Origin: Crocodylus rhombifer
Taxonomy: Eukaryota > Chordata > Crocodylia > Crocodylidae
Length of the DNA stretch: 64,000 nucleotides
Assembly (NCBI GenBank): GCA_038503035.1
Contig: JAVSML010038996.1
Coordinates: 62,001-126,000, forward strand
Direction: 5' to 3'
Program-made: the position numbers and the translations under genes
In this document: positions 20,297 to 59,902 of the stretch, piece after piece
How the letters are laid out: every line of letters begins with the position of its first letter
Numbering within the stretch: position 1 is the stretch's first letter
Notes under the pieces: model-generated
Told to the model about the DNA's origin: nothing
What the model saw: only the letters and a program-made list of their open reading frames with translations
The model's database searches: none

Positions 20297-21418
20297 TGCA
20301 TAGTTTCATAATTTCATAGTTTCTAGGGTCAGAAGGGACCTGAGTAGATCATCTAGTCCAACCCCCTGCCATAGCAGGAAAGAGTACTGGGGTCAAATGA
20401 CCCCAGCAACGTGTTCATCTAACCTCCTCTTAAAGACCCCCAGGGTAGGAGCCAGCACAACTTCACTTAGAAGTTGGTTCCAGATCCTAGCCATGAAGTA
20501 GCGCCTCCTGATATCTAGCCTAAATCAACCATCTGCCAGCTTGTGACCGTTATTCCTAGTCACTCCTGGCAGTGCTCAGGGGAACAGGGACTCCCCCAAT
20601 GCCTGCTGATCCCCCCTGACTAGTTTGTAACAGGCCACTAGATCCCCCCGCAGCCTTCCCTTGTGTCAGGTCCTGTAGCCTCTCCTCATAGGGTCTGCCC
20701 TGCTGCCTCCTGATCATGCGAGTGGCCTCCTCTGGACCCTCTCCATGGTGTCCACATCCCTCCTGAAGTGCGGCGCCCAGAACTGGACGCAGTACTCCAG
20801 CTGTGGCCTGACCAGTGCCGCGTAGAGGGGGAGTATCACCTCCTTGGACCTGCTCGAGATACATCTGTGGATGCATGACAAGGTACGGTTGGCCTTCCTG
20901 ACTGCCTCCCCACACTGCCGGCCCATGTTCATCCTGGAGTCAGTGACGACTCCAAGATCCTTTTCTGCCTCTGTACTGACAAGAAGGGAGTTCCCCAACC
21001 TGTAAGTATGGTGCTGGTTCTTCCTCCCCAGGTGCAGCACCTTGTACTTGTCAGTGTTGAATCCCATCCTATTCTCACCCGCCCACCCCTGTAACCTCTC
21101 TAGGTCCGATTGTAGCCTATTCCTCCCTTCAAGCGTGCCCACATCCCCCCACATCTTAGTGTCATCAGCAAATTTGAACAGGGTGCTTTTTATCCCCTCA
21201 TCCAAGTCACTGATGAAGAAGTTGAACAGTGCGGGCCTGAGCAGCAAGCCCTGGGGGACCCCACTGCCCACATCCCTCCAGGTCGAAAATGACCCATCCA
21301 CCACCACTCTCCGGGTGCGGCCCTCCAGCCAGTTGGTGACCCAATTGACTGTGTGGGTGCCGACACCACAGTCCCCCAGTTTCTTAATGAAAAATGTCTC
21401 CTTAAACAGCACTGTGGC
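20297..21418 (-). mobile_element. CR1 LINE, 5'-truncated, about 1.1 kb
   Basis: Minus strand from the RT palm (FFIKKLGDCGV, about 21415) to the 3' tail. The plus-strand text at the 3' end is CATAGTTTCATAATTTCATA followed by GTCAGAAGGGACCTGAG. The 3' UTR contains the conserved CCCCCTGCCATAGCAGG block. Upstream sequence (endonuclease, ORF1, RT fingers) is missing, the usual result of incomplete reverse transcription. Close in type to the copies at 3.4 and 35.8 kb, which suggests one subfamily active over a similar period. Confidence 0.95.
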
Positions 21419-21454
21419 TTCCTGTATAAGATGGAGCAGTGAGAACCAAGTCAA
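20714..21454 (-). pseudogene. CR1 reverse transcriptase remnant, 246-codon open frame
   Basis: Partial CR1 ORF2 protein. In order: a WLEGRTRRVVVDG block (about residues 43-55), the GVPQG box (about 66-70), LFNFFISDLD (about 78-87), the catalytic FADDTK box (about 94-99, plus-strand position near 21165) and the thumb region with [25 protein letters not shown] segments. It ends with a frameshift near 20720, after which the C-terminus continues in another frame. The first 12 or so residues derive from flanking DNA. The catalytic DD pair is kept, but N-terminal domains are absent, so it cannot work alone. Confidence 0.9.
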
Positions 21455-33879: not shown

Positions 33880-35575
33880 CTGCAGCTCCACTTGGGGGTA
33901 CACTCAGCAGAGGAAGATGGTCCGGAAGCAGCAGGAAGTGCTGGAGCTGGAGAGGACTTGGCCACCAACCCAGCCCTCTGCAAGAGTGTCAGGAGAGGAG
34001 GGAAGAGCTTTGTGCTCTGGATGAGCACCACACCTGCAGTGCTTTTGTCTGCTCACGCGTCCAGCTTCTTTGGGAGATGAACTGTGGCCCCTGCTTCTTC
34101 TATGCCCTGGAGAGGAGGCAGGGGGCCAAGAAGTACATCACTTTCCTTCTGGTGGGTGACAGAACCCTCCTCATAGATCCAGGTGATATACACCAGTGTG
34201 CATGGGCCTTTTACAAAGAGCTCTTCTCCCTAGATCCGACAAATACTGAAGCCTGTTGGACCCTGTAGGAGGGAAACCCTCAGATCAGCATGAGGGACCA
34301 GGACTGGCTGGAGGGTCCTCTCACTCTGGCTGGGTTTTTGTCCACCCTCCACCTGATGCCTGGCAACAAGGCCCTGGGCATTGATGGGCTGACAGTGGAG
34401 TTCTACCAGGCCTCCTGGGACATCCTCAGCCTGGACTTTGCTATGGTCTGGGCCGAATCCGAGGGAAGTGGGGAACTCCCTGTCATGCTGGAGGACCATA
34501 CTGACCCTCAGGTTGTGTGGATCCCCCTTCTTCAGCAGGAGGAACTGGCATCTCATGTCCCTCCTCTGCATGGACTATAAAGTGACAGTGAAGGCCATCT
34601 TGTTGCACCTGTGGTCTGTACTGATGGACGTGATCCAGCATGACCAGATGTACACAGTGCACGGATGTTCCATCTTCAATAACATGTATCTGGTTTGGGA
34701 CCTCCCAGACCTAGTGTGCCAGGAGGGCCTGTCATTCACCCTCCTACCCCGGACCAGGAAAAAGCATTTGACAGAGTGGATCATAGGTACATCACAGGCA
34801 TGCTGTGGGCCTTTGGCTTTGGGCCCCATTCTGTGCAGGCTCTCCAGGTGCTGTACACCTCTGCAGAATGTTTTGGTCAAGCTGGACTAGACCCTGATGG
34901 AGCCCATCCCATTCAAGAGAGGGGTGCATCAAGGCTGCCCACTGTCAGACCAGAAGTATGCCTTGGCCTTGGACCCCTTCCTTGTCCTCTCGTGGAAGTG
35001 AGTGGTGGGTTTGATGTTCCAGGAGCCGGCAGTCCGGCTGGTCCTCTTAGCGTATGCTGATGACAGACCATGGGGAGTACAGTACTCAGGTGACTAGGCA
35101 GAGGTGGAGGCCTGCCAGGTGTGGTATGTGGTGGCTTCCTCTACCCAGGTCAACTGGTCAAGAGCTTTGGCCTGATGGTGGCAGGTGGGCTCACTCTGAC
35201 CCATGCACCACAGGATCTGCTGAAGCATGGGCTGACTGCTCTACTTGGGGGTCCACAAATCCCTCCTCACCAGAGAACTAGCACCAGCTGGAGGCAAGGG
35301 TGGTGGAGCAGCTCTGGGCATGGGCAGGGCTTCTGAGGTTTTTCTCCCTCTGTGGGGAGAGTACTGGTTCCGTCTATGCTCTGGCACTGCTTACACGCCT
35401 TGTCTGTGGCCCCCTGAGGTCATGACAGGGTGCCAGAGATGAGCACTGGATTTTTTCTGGCCAGGATAGCACTGGGTTCCTGCAGAGGTCCTGAGCCTCC
35501 ACTTGCAGGAGGGCAGCCAGGGCCTGGTTTGCCTATGCAGCCAGGTCTTTACATTCTACCTTCAGGTCAGCAGGG
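33880..35575 (+). pseudogene. Tx1-like ORF2 reverse transcriptase remnant
   Basis: Order along the strand: coiled linker with EVLELERTW and ERREELCALDE (33930-34030); SRVQLLWEMNCGPCFFYALE (34053-34112); TNKSPGIDGL-equivalent NKALGIDGLTVEFYQASWD (34364-34420); SLLCMDYKV (34554-34580); VLMDVIQHDQMYTVHGCSIF (34617-34676); DQEKAFDRVDH with the motif A aspartates (34754-34790); RGVHQGCPLSDQKYALALDP (34919-34978); AYADD catalytic box (35050-35064); VNWSRAL (35141-35163); GLVCLCSQVF (35521-35550). At least four frameshifts and several stops separate these. The endonuclease that normally precedes the linker is absent, so ORF1 sequence runs almost directly into it. Confidence 0.88.
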
Positions 35576-35842: not shown

Positions 35843-37011
35843 AAGTTAGCCCTGGACTTGAGGAAGGCCTTCAACACTGTCTCTCACCCCATTATCATTA
35901 AAAAAACTAGGAAACCATGGTGTCGATACCTACACAGTCAGATGACTCACTAGTTGGCTGGAGGGCCACACCCAGAGCGTGGTGGTGGATGGGCCTTATT
36001 CGACCTGGAGGGATGTGGGCAGTGGGGTTCCGCAGGGCACAGTACTTGGGCCCGCACTGTTCAACATCCTCATCAGCGACTTGGACAGGAGCGTAAAAAG
36101 CACCCTGTTCAAATTCGCAGATGACACTAAGATGTGGGGAGAAGTGGGCATTCTAGAAGGGCAGAATAGGCTGAAATTGGATCTGGACAGGTTACAGGGG
36201 TGGGCAGATGAGAATAGGATGGGTTTCAACACTGACAACTGCAAGGTGATACACCTGGGGAAGAAAAACCAGCACCAGACCTACAGGCTGGGGAACTCCC
36301 TTCTCATCAGTGAAGAAGCAGGAAAGGATCTTGGAGTCATCACTGACGCCAAGATGAACATGGGCCGGCAGTGTGGGGATGCAGTCAGGAAGGCCAACCG
36401 TACCTTGTCATGCATCCACAGATGCATCTCGAGCAGGTCCAAAGAGGTGATCCTCCCCCTCTATGCAGCACTGGTCAGGCCTCAGCTGGAGTACTGCGTC
36501 TAGTTCTGGGCGCCGCACTTCAAGAGGGATGTGGACACCATGGAGAGGGTCCAGAGGAGGGCCACTCACATGATCGGGGGGCAGCAGGGCAGGCCCTATG
36601 AGGAGAGGCTATGGGACCTGAACCTGTTCAGCCTCCACAAGAGAAGGCTGAGGGGGGGGAAATCTAGTGGCCATTTACAAACTAGTCAAGGGGGACCAGC
36701 CAACAGTGGGAAGAGTCCCTGTTCCCCCAAGCACTGCCAGGAGCGACCAGGAACAACGGTCACAAGCTGGCAAATGGTAGATTCAGGCTAGATATCAGGA
36801 GGCGCTACTTCACAGTCAGGGTGTCTAGGATCTGGAACCAACTTCTCAAGAGAAGTGGTGCTGGCTCCTACCCTGGGGGTCTTTAAGAGGAGGTTAGATG
36901 AACACCTTGCTGGGGTCATTTAATCCCAGTACTTTTCCCTGCCATGGCAGGGGGTTGGACTTGATGATCTGCTCAGGTCCCTTCCGACCCTACCAACTAT
37001 GAAACTATAAG
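35843..37011 (+). mobile_element. CR1 LINE, 5'-truncated, about 1.17 kb
   Basis: Starts inside the RT at LALDLRKAFNTVSHP (motif A region, 35850-35895). It continues through FADDTK (near 36110-36130) and the C-terminal region, and ends with the tail CCAACTATGAAACTAT near 37009. The 3' UTR contains GCCATGGCAGGGGGTTGGAC. Intact blocks are nearly identical in type to the minus-strand copies at 3.4 and 20.3 kb. Confidence 0.95.
35979..36503 (+). pseudogene. CR1 reverse transcriptase remnant, 174-codon open frame
   Basis: Starts at an internal Met in VVDGPYSTWRDVGSGVPQGT and contains the PQGTVLGPALFN box (about residues 18-29), SDLD, the catalytic FADDTK box (about 45-50) and HRCISSRSKEVILPLYAALV. 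It stops at a TAG near 36501 inside the LEYCVxFW motif; the C-terminus continues downstream in other frames. Motif A lies upstream in a different frame, so at least one frameshift and one nonsense change have inactivated it. Confidence 0.9.
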
Positions 37012-47515: not shown

Positions 47516-48135
47516 AAGCAGACACATAGACAGCGGGAACAATGAAAACACATGAAGTTAGGTCCACACTTTTTTTTGGTTTTGCTTTTTAAATACCTTC
47601 ATTATGATATTTTGCTGTCTTGCCTTCAGTGGCTTTATGTTGTTATGTGGGTTTTAGCAAGATGGAAATACAAAGAAAGGATGAAAGCAGGGGGTCAGGG
47701 ACTGTGATGGAGAGCATGGGTGGGGTTGGAGCAAACAGCCAGTCAGCACAGGTGATGGAACGATCCAAATGAAAACTGCAAGAGGCCATCTGATAACATT
47801 GATGTGATTGTCCCTTCTCTGGTTGCTTTAGTTAATTTTCAGTTTCTTTCTTTGATGCCACATGGTGGAAGTGGGATGGAGGAGAGGGCTGTATGGGTCC
47901 TTATGACCCCAGCATGATCTCCCTATGCCAGCATTTCCCAGACTTTTGACACCTGGGGCACACTTTTTTTTTGTCTTATAATTTGCAGTGAACTTCATGC
48001 TTATACCTGAAAAATGTGTATACATAAACAAACACACATGTACATGCATGCACAGACATACACACACATGCACATACACACACGTGCTTTTTTTTTTAGG
48101 TGTAAGAAGGAAGTGTGTTGTGAATTTCATGTTTG

Positions 48136-48137
<2 letters not shown>

Positions 48138-48174
<37 letters not shown>

Positions 48175-48184
48175 NNNNNNNNNN
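48138..48184. other. (TA)n microsatellite ending in a 10-N assembly gap
   Basis: TA dinucleotides from 48138 to 48174 run into N at 48175-48184, followed by T7. The gap size of exactly 10 suggests a placeholder. A TG/CA-rich stretch lies just upstream at 48028-48086. Reading frames across the gap are artefacts. Confidence 0.97.
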
Positions 48185-50454
48185 TTTTTTTACAATATCC
48201 ATCAATATTTGGATAACGGTGAGCAGGGGAGACATAAACTTCCTATATGGCAAACAATTATTTACAACAGTCAACACCAGGGAAGGCTGTGAGAAACTTT
48301 AGATGGAGCTAAGAAAGGTAGAGTAAATGGACAGTATGATGGCAAATGAAATGTGTTAAAGACAAGTGATAGATAATACACACTGGAAGGAATTATTTGA
48401 ATTATTTTTATATAATGATGGTTTTAAGTTGGCTGTAATAACTTAGGAAAAGGAGTTAGGCATCACTTGCAGGCTGCTTAATGAAAAATCTTACTTCAGT
48501 GAGGAGCAACAGCTAAAAAAGGCTAAGAAAATGCTAGCTCAAACAGGGACAGAAAATAATACTGGATTTATTATAATGGTTCACCCTCCCCTAAAATAAC
48601 ATTTTTTTCTGGTCATCTTTTCTTAATGAAGATACAGCAAAAGGGTGTTCTTAGCCATTCATAAAACACATGTAAAACCATGGGGAATCCTCCATGCAAG
48701 AAGAGACTGTAAAGACTGTACATGTGCAGTGATGAGAGAAGAGGAATAAAAGGAGGAATGAGTATGAATATAGAGGATATGGTAAAAAATTTTGTTCACG
48801 GGGGGGCATTTGCAATCAATATTTTTTTAATGACATTTTCTCAAAGTTTTCTGTTCTTTAAAAAAAGGTTCCCCCCCCCCCTTTTAATGTTCAGGAAGAT
48901 TTTTTTTACGGAAACTCCAGAGTGTTTTAAGGATATTTTAGGTTTTGGAGAAATTCCCTATGCCTAGATGGAGAATATTGTGAAAATAATTACATCTCTA
49001 GGTCCTGAATATGTTTTCAAGGGTCTGATCCCATATCAATCAAAAGAAGTCTTACTGAATTCACTGGGATTTTGGGTGAGGCTTTACAGCTCTGATTGAG
49101 AAGTTGACCCCTATTCAGCAAAGCTGTTTAGTACAGGGTTCTAGGTGTACATTTATTTTCCCTTGATATAAATGACATCTAAACATTGTCTTAAGGTTGG
49201 GGACTTCAAAAAGGCAGGCACTTCATTGTCTTAGGCCCATTTGAAAATCCCAGTGTAAAAAAGAGATTTCCACAAGTACCAATCACAATTAGGTGCTTTG
49301 AAAAATCCATTGAATGTAGGCCACTTAATCCCTTCCCTGCATACACCCAGTACAAACTTCACACTTTCTGGGAGAGCAATATTTTGCAATATTTACAGCA
49401 GCTATGATTTGGGGATCTCTTGATGTTTTTTATATCCCAGGATCCAGCATGACCAGCCATATAGTGGGATCTGACATGATTTGATAATAAAAAAGATTCA
49501 AGGAACTCCCCCAGTTTTGAACAGTGTGCAACAGAAGACTGAAACCAGCCTTTTCTACTGTAAATAGCCTTCATTTAATGATATGCTGATTAAAATCAAG
49601 AATGTGCATGGGTTTCTGCAGATATAAGTTTGTGTTCATTTATTTAAAAAATATTTTTTTAATTTAATATTCAGTCTGATCTGCCTCTTCCCTATATTTT
49701 TTCAATAAGTATGTTTTGGTGTTCAACTCAAAGAACTGTCAGCTTGGGTTGGAAATGCTGAGGCCTGACATTTCTAGATTAAATGTCAACCAGATGTTTG
49801 TGCACTTTCCCTATAAGGCTTTCAAGAAGCTTCCCAATTTAGTAGTGTGTTTCGCTGTTAGAGGAAACCTAACTTTGTACTTTAGCAGTGTAGAGGGGAA
49901 AAAAACCTGAACTCCTGGGGGGGAAGAAAGAACAGGCAAGGCACCTGAGTGATAGGAATTATGATTCCAAAGTGGAATCCACAATAGTTAGTATCTGTCT
50001 AGTCTTTCTCTTTTTAATCAGATCGAAATTAATTCAACTGAACTACAAAAGACTATTTTGCCGTAACATTAAGATTGCAATTTAAACTATTAAAGTGGAG
50101 GAAATATAGAATCAAATTCCAGATGATAATTTGACTTTCCCCTAAGTCAATGCACTGTGGTAGTTGCACTTGCTTTGTTTTTGGTAATAAGGATGAGAAA
50201 AAAGATGGAAGTGAAGTTTATCTGTGATTTGGTAACTGAGGCTTATGAAACAACACCTTCACATTGAGTTTACCACCCTCAGCAGTGGTAGCCTCAATCA
50301 ATCTACACTGCTCCATGAAGGTTTCCCAAGGGAGCAGAAAGGGAACCCAGATTTTTGCAACTCCGCCCCCCTGCCCCTGCATTTAGGTGCACAAAACAAA
50401 ACAGGCTTTAGTCTCAATTTCCACCCTGTAAATTTGGGATCATAACACTTCCTT
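48185..50454. other. Unique AT-rich noncoding region
   Basis: No gene recognised. A C11 run is at about 48871. An old amniote repeat remnant (AATTAGGTGCTTTGAAAAAT type) is at about 49225-49320. Nothing else of note. Confidence 0.5.
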
Positions 50455-50915: not shown

Positions 50916-51000
50916 AATGAGCACTGGGCCTGGAGGTACTGCAATACTGGGTTGGAGAGGCTGGAGCAAGCTCTGACACTCTCCTCTGGTGCCAAAAATG
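50916..51000 (-). pseudogene. RNU2 (pseudogene fragment): U2 snRNA gene fragment, 3' part
   Basis: On the minus strand the text contains TATTGCAGTACCTCCAGG (18 bases, identical to the vertebrate U2 snRNA stem-loop IV segment; plus coordinates 50929-50946). Further upstream it has GAGCTTGCTCC (stem-loop III) and TTTTTGG followed by a GGAGA block (Sm-site side of the molecule). The order and spacing follow U2 nt about 105-188, with small deletions between loops III and IV. It lies directly downstream of a minus-strand retrotransposon whose other side carries the U2 5' end. It is a non-functional fragment of the spliceosomal U2 RNA gene. Confidence 0.82.
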
Positions 51001-51366
51001 CTGATAGGAATCTTTTTTTACAACACAACTGAAAGAAACTACATTAACACAAAGCCTGATAAGCTTCTCAACACAACACTACCTTGTTCTTATTACACCC
51101 CTTTCCACCATTAACACACTAACCTCTCACAAACCACCCCTAATGCAGGAGGAAGCAACAATTTTCACTCTGCCCCTTTGTACTTTTAGAAGAAACACCA
51201 CCATTTTTCTTTCCTCCATCTCTTCTCTGCCTTCTCCTATCCCATATAGTCTGCATCTTGATCCACATAGTATTTCAATTCATATATTGCCAACTCCAAA
51301 CATTCTCTTCTGGAGAAAGTTAGTTCCTTGACCAACGGTAGGTTTTTCACCTTCCATATTGCTATG

Positions 51367-51600
51367 GGGCATGTCTACATGTGCCCCCAACTGTGCAGTT
51401 GTTACTGGGCAGTCCCAGTGGTGCACAAGTCATTGTCAACCCTACTGCTCAGCAGCAATAAACAACTGTGCAGTAGCTTGTTGCTATGGCAGAGTAGCAT
51501 CAGTGTCAGTTTGTGCTTGTCAACACTACGTCACCATAGTGATGAGCTATGTTGCCTAGCTTGTCACTATGGCAACGTAGTGTCTCATGTAGACATGCCC
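51367..51600. mobile_element. MITE with GGGCATGTCTAC ends, 234 bp
   Basis: The left end GGGCATGTCTACATGTG and the right end CATGTAGACATGCCC are perfect inverted copies over 15 bases. The interior carries the AACTGTGCAGTTGTTACT block shared with 27.6 kb and self-complementary GTCACTATGGCAACGTAGTG / CACTACGTCACCATAGTGA segments. Target duplication not preserved. It lies in the 3' part of the U2-associated LINE. Confidence 0.85.
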
Positions 51601-51636
51601 ACTGTTACACAATTTAGTATGGTTCACAGTGTCTCT

Positions 51637-51933
51637 GGGCATTTATACATGTGCTCTAGTAGTGTGGGGGTGTTTTAATTAGATGCCTGGAGTGCCTCAT
51701 GTATCAGTGTCCCTGTGCTGAAAAATGGCGGTGAGGGTGCTTTAACTAAAGCTCATTGACTGAGTTTTAGTTAAAATGCCCCCACTGCCATTTTTCAGTG
51801 CAGGAAAAATGAGATGCTGGAGTCTGCTGCAGCGTGGTAATTACCACGCTCCAGCAGGCTTGAATTAATCGATTGAGTCTGCTCTGTAATTATAGCATGT
51901 GGGAGCAGCTTTACTGCACATGTATAGGCATCC
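51637..51933. mobile_element. Palindromic MITE, 297 bp, GGGCATTTATACATG ends
   Basis: The left end GGGCATTTATACATG pairs with the right end CATGTATAGGCATCC. Two strong hairpins lie inside. 51718-51755 pairs with 51761-51799 (CTGAAAAATGGCGGTGAGGG against CCCCCACTGCCATTTTTCAG), and a second palindrome is centred on GCGTGGTAATTACCACGC at 51832-51849. A diverged relative of the neighbouring MITE. Confidence 0.83.
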
Positions 51934-51954
51934 TTTGTCTCCAGTCCTTTAGGC

Positions 51955-53612
51955 ATTAACCCATGCAATGCCATTTCATATGTTAAGTTACAGTTCATAT
52001 TGATTGCCTCAAAAAACAACATACTCACTCCCATACCTCTTGGGCAGTCCCAAAAGGGCAGTTTCTTTAGCCTCACATCCCTCTCTTGGGTATCTTACCA
52101 AACCCCATTAATGCGGAATACCCCTCACAGGAAGAATATTCCGTATCATCACCCATTTGATATCTGTATGTTCTCCTTTCAGTCGATTATCTGTCACTTC
52201 TTTACACACATTTGCAACCTGTCCTTTTCCAAATCCCCAGCTATTGTTATAATGTCTTTCATTCTTATCATATTAATTATCTTCTTATGGTCTTTCAAGT
52301 ACACTAACTCAATCCCTCTAGTTGACTTACCCTTAAGAAACTCTCCATCTTTGCATAGTGGGCTAGTGGCTACCACACCCACAGTTTTTTCCAGTCTCCC
52401 CCATACATGCCCCATCTTCTTTGTGTTCTTCCTGGCAGGTAATGTAGAAACATGCAGTCTTCCCCACTCCCTGTGTTCCCTCTTTACACAACATACTTAT
52501 AAAGTAAGTATATACAAAACTTTCCAAATCTGGTACTTCCCAACTTCCTGATTTCCTGACATCATATAGCTCCATTCTGTCTACCCTTTCTCTTTTATTC
52601 CCTCCCCCACCCACAAAATACATATTTGCCTCTGTACCTTCCTTATCTGCTGCCATGACAGTGGATACACCACTCCCATGTAAAGGATGACCAATAAGAA
52701 TACTGTTTTCACTGCAGCTGTGTTACCCTTGAAAGATAATGTTCTACCATGCCATGATCCCAGGATCTGTCTCACTCTTATCTCTAACTTCTCCCATACA
52801 ACTTTGTTCTTTTCCCTTCAGCATCCATTGGGATTCCCAAGATCTTGAATACACCCTCTACCATCCATGGCCCAAACTTCTGTAAATTCTCCCAGTTCCC
52901 CACACCCATCAATGTACTTTTCATCTTACTTGATTTTGCCCCTGATACTCCACTGTAGTCCTCAGTATGCTTCAGTACCTTCTTGACTGATATGTTGTCC
53001 TGAGTCATTATGTTCACATCATCCATGTACAATGTTCATTTAACTTCTCTTTCTCTTGGTATCTTTGCATCACTTACCAGCTTATCATAAAAAATTCTCT
53101 GTTCCAATGGCTCCATCATGCACATAAAAAAGATAGGAGAACAATGGGTAACCCTGTCTTACCCATGTTTGTATGGGGAATGCTTTCCTCAAGTAACCAT
53201 TTACCCTTCCTCAACCTTCTGTTTTACTGTATAGCACTTTGACCCACATAATCATCTTTACAGGAAACCCCATCCTCCTCAATACTGCAAACATGAAATC
53301 ATGTTCAATCCTATCCTAAGCTCTTTCAAGGTCTAAATTTATTATTACCATACTTCTTTTCCTGCCTTCTTTCATCCCTTCTTTCCCATCTTCACCATTC
53401 CTCCATCAGACTCTCAACCTTTACTTCTACTTTCCTAGTCACCTCTCATCTTTTGGTCTGCTTTCCTTTCCATAACTGACACGATAATCTACAAGACTAC
53501 TGTTGATGCTGTTCCGGCCTCTGAGAACTTGTCCTCCCCCTCCATCTTGGTATTCTGCCACTATCCCTTTGGCAGTCCTGGCATCGATCAAGGCAGTTCA
53601 ACTAGGCCTCTG
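51955..53612 (-). pseudogene. Keno/Tx1-like reverse transcriptase and C-terminal remnant
   Basis: Order on the minus strand: AKGIVAEYQD (about 53560-53590, pre-motif region), LRGRNSINSSLVDY (about 53500-53540), motif A remnant INLDLERA then D after a stop (53320-53345), HDFMFAVLRRMGFPVKMIMW (53245-53310), RQGYPLFSYLF (53125-53160, equivalent to RQGCPLSPLLF), catalytic YMDD (53018-53029) with VSGAKSSKMKS, FKILGIPMDAEGK (about 52810-52850), ILGSWHGRTLSFKG (52730-52770), WEVPDLESFVYTYF (about 52520-52560), LPVRGIPH then a GC.xxET zinc-finger-like remnant (about 52060-52130). Stops and frameshifts show it is dead. The RT copies element RNA into DNA at the nicked target. Confidence 0.8.
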
Positions 53613-53619
53613 CCAGGCC

Positions 53620-53657
53620 ACTACACTTGATCTTAGCCAAGAAAAGGCCAAGAAGAT
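53620..53657 (-). pseudogene. RNU2 (pseudogene fragment): U2 snRNA gene fragment, 5' end
   Basis: The minus strand reads GGCTAAGATCAAGTGTAGT, 19 bases identical to U2 snRNA nt about 18-36 (the branch-site recognition side of the molecule). It is preceded by ATCTTCTTGGCCTTTT, matching U2 nt 1-15 except for loss of GC, one C-to-T change and a three-base CTT insertion. The homology stops at the retrotransposon junction. With the 3' fragment at 50916-51000 this is a U2 gene copy split by the LINE. Confidence 0.9.
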
Positions 53658-53702
53658 GTCACTGATGGGAAACTACCACAAAGATAAGTTAGGGCAGCCC
53701 AT

Positions 53703-53721: not shown

Positions 53722-54587
53722 GTTGGTGCCTATTGTGTGCAGAGCACCTCAGTGCCAAATCTTTTACAGGCCGTGGTGCCCCCATACCTATGTATACATC
53801 ACCTATGACCCACTGTATCCCCTGTATTGCCTATGCCTTCCTCCATAGACTTACCTGCTGGGAGCTGCAGGTGCTGCTGTGGTCCACCATGCTGCTGTTC
53901 ACTATGCTGCCTGCCTGCACTGCCAGCCACATGCATGTGTGCATGCGCACATGCATGTGGCCTCCTACACCTTATCACCTACTTCTACTGTTCCCAGCCC
54001 CAAGCAGTCCCCTGAAGATGGAACTCTGCCAGCTTGCAAAGGGAAACCCAGGGGTTTTTTTTTCTTTTAAAGGAGAAAATCCACATTTTTTGGCAGGAAA
54101 CAGAAAAACTGGACCCCTGATGATTATGAAGATGGCTTATACCCTGACCAGGGAAAAGCTCTTGAGGGCACCTCTATGATTACCTGATAAGTTAACCTGC
54201 TAAAACAAGGATATTACTAACTGCAAGTTGCTGAGTTAAACTGGTAAGAAATGGATTTTAGTGATGATATGTATTGACATTTTTGGATTTGGCATTTAAC
54301 TGGCTTTGAATTTAATTGGCAAGGTGACTCTGTTTGAAAGATTTTGGATTTGGTATTGAATTGGCTTTGTATTTAATTGTCAAGCAAGTTTGGACTGTTT
54401 ATAAACCTAAAAACAAGATGGATAGTTTGTAATATATGTAAGTATGTAAAAAAAGTGCTGCTTAAAGTGTGTTTATGGACTGTATGTGATGAAACGTGCA
54501 GAAGTTTCAGAAAAGGCAAAATGCATACATTTTGGATCAACTAAGTCTGTGGGTACCCTATAGTAATTTGCTTATATGAAAATTAGT
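53722..54587. other. Noncoding region with a 34-bp palindrome
   Basis: No gene. 53830-54060 is GC/CT-rich, and T-rich runs occur near 54055. The palindrome is listed separately. Confidence 0.5.
53927..53960. repeat. 34-bp near-perfect palindrome, alternating Pu/Py
   Basis: It starts CCACATGCATGTGTGC and ends GCGCACATGCATGTGG. Only one base pair (14 versus 21) mismatches. The alternating ATGCATGTG pattern is prone to cruciform or Z-DNA conformations in vitro. Confidence 0.92.
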
Positions 54588-59104: not shown

Positions 59105-59300
59105 ATAGTATCATAGTACTTAGGATCAGAAGGGACCTAAACAGATCATCAGGTCTGACCCCCTGCCCTGGGCAGGAACGGGTGCTCGGATCATATCACC
59201 CCAGCCAAATATCTGTCTAGTTTCCTCTTGAAGACCCCCAAGGTAGGAGAGAGTACCACCTCACTTGGGAGCCCATTCCAGAGTCTGGCAGCCCTAACTA
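59105..59300 (-). mobile_element. CR1 LINE 3' end, part 1 of a split copy
   Basis: Plus text ATCATAGTACTTAGGATCAG / AAGGGACCTAAACAGATCATC, the CCCCCTGCCCTGGGCAGG block, then GAAGACCCCCAAGGTAGGAG and GGCAGCCCTAACTA. It stops where the plus-strand CR1 begins and resumes at about 60000. Confidence 0.9.
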
Positions 59301-59902
59301 ATTCTAAAAGAGACTTGGGGGTTATCATTGACCACAAGATGAACATGAGCCTGCAATGCGATGCTGTGGCTAGTAAAGTGACCAAAACGCTGGCTTGCAT
59401 CCAGAGATGCTTCTCAAGCAAATCCCGGGACATCATTCTCCCCTTGTACTCGGCCTTGGTGGGGCCACAGCTGGAGTACTGCATTCAGTTTTGGGCTCCA
59501 CAATTCAAAAAGGATGTGGAGAAGCTTGAGAGAGTCCAGAGAAGATCCATGTGCATGATCAGAGGTCAGGAAAGCAGACCTTACAATGACAGGCTGAGAG
59601 CCATGGGGCTCTTTAGCCTGGAAAAGTGCAGGCTCAGGGGTGATCTGATGGCCATCTATAAGTTTATCAGGAGTGATGACCAGGATCTGGGGGAACATTT
59701 GTTCACCAGAGCACCCCAAGGGATGATGAGGTTGAACGGTCATAAACTACTACAAGACCATTTCAGGCTGGACATAAGGAAGAATTTCTTTACTGACCAA
59801 GCCCCCAAGGTCTGGAACAGCCTGCCATTGGAGGTGGTTCAAGCACCTGCCTTCAAGAGCAAATTGGATGCTTATCTTGCATCTTCCTATGACCCCAGCT
59901 GA
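59228..59902 (+). pseudogene. CR1 RT C-terminal remnant, 224-codon open frame
   Basis: The first about 24 codons are antisense sequence of the host CR1. True CR1 protein starts at SKRDLGVIIDHKMNMSL (about residue 25). Blocks in order: CIQRCFSSKSRDIILPLYSA, GPQLEYCIQFWAP, KLERVQRRSMCMIRG, LRAMGLFSLEKCRLRGDLMA, HFRLDIRKNFFT, WNSLPLEVVQAP and AYLA near the end. This is the C-terminal third of CR1 ORF2, downstream of the catalytic palm. It lacks stops over 200 codons, so it is among the youngest copies here. It has no RT active site and is not a functional gene. Confidence 0.9.

Follow-up and report, generated by a model that had tools for sequence, protein, structure and literature searches.

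In the window (the whole 64-kb stretch of DNA that was analysed), a copy of the U2 snRNA sequence is interrupted by element K, a decayed LINE of the L1/Tx1 group that has lost its 5' part. The split is genuine: two U2 pieces follow each other in the order and on the strand expected from a single copy, the upstream one breaks off at nt 37, and a reverse transcriptase (RT) of the L1/Tx1 group is encoded between them (Table 1). This arrangement probably results from the target-primed insertion of an L1/Tx1-group LINE, most likely Keno-like, into the U2 copy.

Table 1. Features of the split U2 copy and of element K (positions in the window)
Feature	Position	Strand	Remarks
U2 snRNA 3' piece	50921..50999	-	U2 nt 99-184; two deletions, of 7 and 3 bases
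TTCCTATCAG, where the downstream U2 flank may begin	51001..51010	-	9/10 identical to U2 nt 43-52
Pieces resembling U2 nt 43-52, near the 3' end of the LINE	51065-51056, 51038-51029, 51010-51001	-	8/10, 7/10 and 9/10, respectively
Element K, 5'-truncated decayed LINE with nested repeat-like DNA	51011..53619	-	putative position of both ends
Likely K coding end beyond the nested DNA	51180..51366	-	frame with IWKVKNLPLVKELTFSRRECLELAIYELKYYV, read by eye
Small repeat-like piece inside K	51367..51600		perfect 15-base inverted ends
Palindromic DNA inside K	51704..51860		inverted arms, 52 nt and 20 nt long
K protein, C-terminal part, several frames	51906..52550	-	ends with a WDCPRG...LTYEMALHGL stretch
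K reverse transcriptase core, two frames	52784..53366	-	LDLERAxDRIEH motif, LYMDDVN box
U2 snRNA 5' piece	53620..53659	-	U2 nt 5-37 aligned at 53655-53620; Rfam alignment puts nt 1 at 53659

The 5' piece is identical to U2 at 32 of the 33 positions aligned (nt 5–37) and carries three inserted bases. Its changes consist of this single 3-base insertion and one CpG-to-TpG change; nt 17–37 are exact and the match ends abruptly after nt 37. A preliminary description of the locus had already placed a U2 piece on the minus strand at 53620–53657 and had assigned it to about nt 1–36; its presence stands, but its end is nt 37 and not nt 36. The alignment score is 52, compared with a maximum of 25 for 300 shuffled sequences. 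The Rfam U2 model also recognizes the piece from 53659 onwards with 29.6 bits, short of the 46 bits set for gathering (E of 0.004 in 5.5 kb and of 0.046 in 64 kb), and no U2 match was found with Rfam at the gathering threshold. The vertebrate U2 reference used for these alignments is identical over nt 1–63 to the U2 copy found on L001.

The 3' piece, which shows several base changes in the U2 alignment, some of them at CpG sites, reaches a score of 56, compared with a shuffle maximum of 27 (n = 300), and none of 400 random stretches of the window equalled it. The earlier location of this piece on the minus strand (50916–51000) is retained, but its core starts at nt 99 and not near nt 105, as had been given together with an end near nt 188. 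With E values up to 10 admitted, Rfam gave no U2 match over this piece. The two pieces are the top two U2 matches of the 64-kb window, the next tile scoring 26; they are colinear, lie on the same minus strand and each score about twice as high as the best of 300 shuffles.

The upstream break coincides with a position described for known U2-targeting elements. For Characidium fish, a specific Keno site is described, '37 nucleotides downstream of U2 snRNA' (PMC6136364); we take this wording to mean 37 nt into U2. The 3' target given there is TCTGTTCTTATCAGTTTAAT. Downstream of Utopia in Phytophthora, U2 sequence resumes at nt 39, and the 3' flanks of Utopia are those of Keno (PMC4640811). As the 5' piece stops at nt 37, the upstream edge of K lies at this known insertion position, and K is inserted there in the same orientation as U2. 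No target duplication was found in the flanks compared, which share no stretch longer than 8 bases when up to one mismatch is tolerated; a heavily decayed duplication located elsewhere could escape detection. Among genome contigs, three loci carried by two contigs harbour a U2 sequence that is uninterrupted at this site. Among viral contigs, two U2 patterns gave 0 and 0 matches, and Tx1 patterns gave 9 and 85 stretches, none of which was confirmed.

The U2 target itself may have been a pseudogene. With a consensus motif as the query, no U2 promoter element stood out upstream of U2: the best candidate agrees at 8 of 15 positions, and 1889 of 2000 random stretches do at least as well. For the 3' box, the best candidate agrees at 7 of 11 positions (uncontrolled count). 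A U1-like 11-mer, TTTGTGGTAGT, sits 12 bases upstream of the U2 start (53682–53672, minus strand). Its resemblance to U1 nt 127–137 was not retained, as 16 of 400 random sequences did equally well and six RNAs had been tried.

At most 61 bases of U2 (nt 38–98) are missing between the two pieces, and not about 68 as initially proposed. The deletion at the 5' junction that had been put forward to explain their absence is doubtful: the upstream piece extends as far as expected, to nt 37, which places the loss on the downstream side of the insertion. The loss would perhaps be restricted to 46 bases if TTCCTATCAG, which directly precedes the 3' core, corresponds to U2 nt 43–52. If this candidate is accepted, the downstream U2 flank would begin near the known site and the missing bases would be nt 53–98. 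Such a match is equalled by 9 of 6000 random stretches of the window when its start is limited to nt 39–45, and a match of this grade anywhere in U2 nt 39–98 was obtained with 8 of 1500. Two further U2-like bits lie less than 70 bases upstream of TTCCTATCAG, and gapped alignments favour one of them; in the controls, this favoured bit was matched by 19 or 20 of 1500 random stretches under two schemes and by 85 to 103 of 1500 under the two others. Two 8/10 matches to the ten-base motif within 91 bases are found in 164 of the 63909 minus-strand stretches, the K locus included. The three pieces resembling U2 nt 43–52 could be due to chance or constitute a target-like 3' end of the LINE. The 3' flank of Keno starts at U2 nt 39 (TCTGTTCTTATCAG); here, the candidate TTCCTATCAG is found together with rival short matches. 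Owing to these rivals close to the 3' core, 61 missing bases is an upper bound, 46 a possible value, and no exact position is assigned to the junction.

A non-LTR RT with a YMDD box had been noticed on the minus strand between the U2 pieces, and the LYMDDVN sequence is indeed found there, on the same strand as U2. About 2.6 kb follow the U2 head, of which about 1.7 kb can be read as LINE protein. The read-through of K combines eight segments between 53582 and 51906, with 9 stops and 7 frame joins. The RT match supported by search tools starts at residue 73 (about 53366), around 250 bases inside the U2 junction; the LINE nature of these 250 bases, counted from U2 nt 37, was recognized by eye only, including VLRGRNSINSSLV, an RT motif that extends the coding sequence to about 53580, some 40 bases from the junction. 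The endonuclease part, which is apurinic-like in Keno, is missing as a result of the 5' truncation. The decayed C-terminal read-through did not match any Pfam model. Its comparison with PDB gave 0 matches and is uninformative, since the C-terminus of a plant L1 used as a control likewise gave 0. The far C-terminal stretch, including the frame with IWKVKNLPLVKELTFSRRECLELAIYELKYYV, presumably resembles Tx1-clade proteins. K is known here from one copy.

The RT supports the assignment of the element lying between the U2 pieces to the L1/Tx1 group of LINEs. The K read-through is matched by RVT_1 at E 1.5e-15. Five chains of the L1 ORF2p type match it with E between 2.2e-21 and 9.7e-21, and three R2-type chains, two of which are named only as reverse transcriptase-like protein, with 1.4e-4 to 5.7e-4. 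In a tree of nine RT rows, three of them unusual in composition and three on long branches, K forms a group (96/97) with the L1 rows of human and plant and with two Tx1 rows, one of these being a Xenopus Tx1 fragment, and the CR1-like row and three other RT proteins fall outside this group. The first assignment, to a Keno-like RT of the Tx1 group, holds at the level of the L1/Tx1 group, but the evidence on Tx1 against L1 is divided, with 6 strict diagnostic columns for Tx1 versus 4 for L1. Looser counts gave 31 Tx1-only, 36 human-L1-only and 34 plant-L1-only columns. With phmmer, human L1 (82.4 bits) scores higher than the Xenopus Tx1 fragment (69.7), itself higher than the window's own Tx1-like row (25.4), and with BLASTP human L1 (90.1 bits) and the Xenopus Tx1 fragment (89.4 bits) are level. 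With an E limit of 10, one protein search with K retrieved four proteins, led by a plant protein (3.4e-7); a second one, with a padded query, retrieved none of 5821 candidates at this threshold.

The window contains other repeats. A second Tx1-like element is located at 34393–35575 (plus strand); over 292 positions, its read-through shares 48% identity with an RT fragment of Xenopus Tx1. Like K, this element (about 34.4–35.6 kb) has an RT of the L1/Tx1 group, but it is only 31% identical to K over 67 residues and none of the U2 matches of the window lies there. Sequence-specific Tx1 elements have been reported in crocodilians (PMC5753468). CR1-like ORFs were recognized by eye at 20714–21454 (minus strand), 35946–36503 and 59159–59902 (both plus strand). 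Together, the Tx1-like and CR1-like sequences would suit a reptile-like host, of crocodilian or turtle type. Two 43-base direct repeats, 88% alike and 61 bases apart, occupy 54281–54384. The segment 63277–63365 is probably a palindrome, as both of its strands give mir-4433 and mir-4650 matches, all below gathering scores. A small assembly gap at 47828–48298 is indicated by unread bases (X) that adjoin a simple repeat in an ORF translation.

From these observations, the following history can be proposed. A U2 snRNA copy, either a gene or a pseudogene, would have been cut at the position used by Keno and Utopia, just after nt 37–38. An L1/Tx1-group LINE, most likely Keno-like, would have been copied into it by target-primed reverse transcription, in the orientation of U2, and synthesis would have ended within the RT region or shortly ahead of it, so that a 5'-truncated copy became joined to U2 nt 37. 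Subsequent decay would have brought stops, frameshifts, nested repeat-like pieces and CpG changes, and a stretch within U2 nt 38–98 would have been lost on the downstream side, this order of the later losses being the one that we infer.

Other origins have to be weighed. A non-specific L1-group LINE might have landed in a U2 pseudogene; this would fit an RT that could be either L1 or Tx1 within the L1/Tx1 group and a target that no promoter remnant marks as a real U2 gene. The break at nt 37 would then be a coincidence, but it falls on the published site and, by a simple reckoning, only about 3 of the 188 possible positions are that site or its immediate neighbours, which makes such a landing unlikely. 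Alternatively, the 5' piece could be a chimera of U2 RNA and a truncated LINE, formed by template switching or RNA ligation, with a 3' piece of independent origin, either a pseudogene or a portion of a SINE with a snRNA head. Such SINEs have reportedly been published, and they occur in crocodilians; an element of this type (SINEU) carries its snRNA head on a short body, whereas about 2.6 kb follow the U2 head of K. Chimeras between U1–U6 snRNAs and LINE-1 are documented, with the snRNA located 5' of a full or truncated LINE-1 (PMC13174262), and the sense junction of a snRNA 5' piece with a 5'-truncated LINE is shared by K. The snRNA is described there at the 5' end of the LINE only, whereas K has a second U2 piece directly downstream. 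A chimera would thus need a second, independent U2 piece that happens to be colinear, on the same strand and directly after the LINE, in a tiled window where no other U2 match exceeds 26. As two events are needed, this explanation looks improbable; two independent snRNA-headed SINE pieces are unlikely too, given the colinearity, the shared strand and the absence of any other U2 match above 26.

K could also belong to Utopia, the other U2-targeting family, which shares its U2 site, has been reported in alligator, turtles and anole and includes reptile families with a weak U2 preference. Utopia is a member of the NeSL clade and has a restriction-like endonuclease (PMC4640811), located at the C-terminus, but the RT of K, apparently of another group, is far nearer to L1 ORF2p (2.2e-21) than to the best R2-type chain (1.4e-4), so that this identity is very unlikely on RT grounds. 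Furthermore, reptile Utopia elements are reported to generate 20-base duplications (PMC4640811). With such a duplication, the 5' flank would extend to around nt 58, but that of K ends at nt 37 and does not show such a target duplication.

The target-primed insertion of a Keno-like LINE is in line with what characterizes Keno, a U2-specific LINE of the Tx1 clade: a break at nt 37, the orientation of U2, an RT of the L1/Tx1 group and U2 sequence downstream. K differs by its truncation, and it is likened to Keno by description and not by Keno sequence. The hosts given for Keno are frogs, fish, lancelet and hydra (PMC4640811), and no reptile Keno is named in the available portions of PMC4640811, PMC6136364, PMC9323068, PMC3706591 and PMC4746887. 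In manatee, a likeness to Keno-1_SSa has been claimed for a U2 sequence 98% identical to guinea-pig U2 (PMC9323068); this may reflect U2 itself matching the U2 flanks included in that consensus.

K is probably one of the U2-targeting, Keno-type elements; known from one decayed copy, it counts as a lead and not as a system. Few elements aim at snRNA genes, and the question of how they persist on targets of such low copy number is still under discussion (PMC4640811). It is quite possible that a Keno lineage of U2-specific Tx1 elements persisted into amniotes and inserted into their U2 genes, beside Utopia at the same U2 site of reptiles. If true, the presence of such a fossil in a reptile-like genome would widen the range given for the Keno lineage, and two unrelated U2-targeting lineages, Keno and Utopia, would be found in the same vertebrate group.
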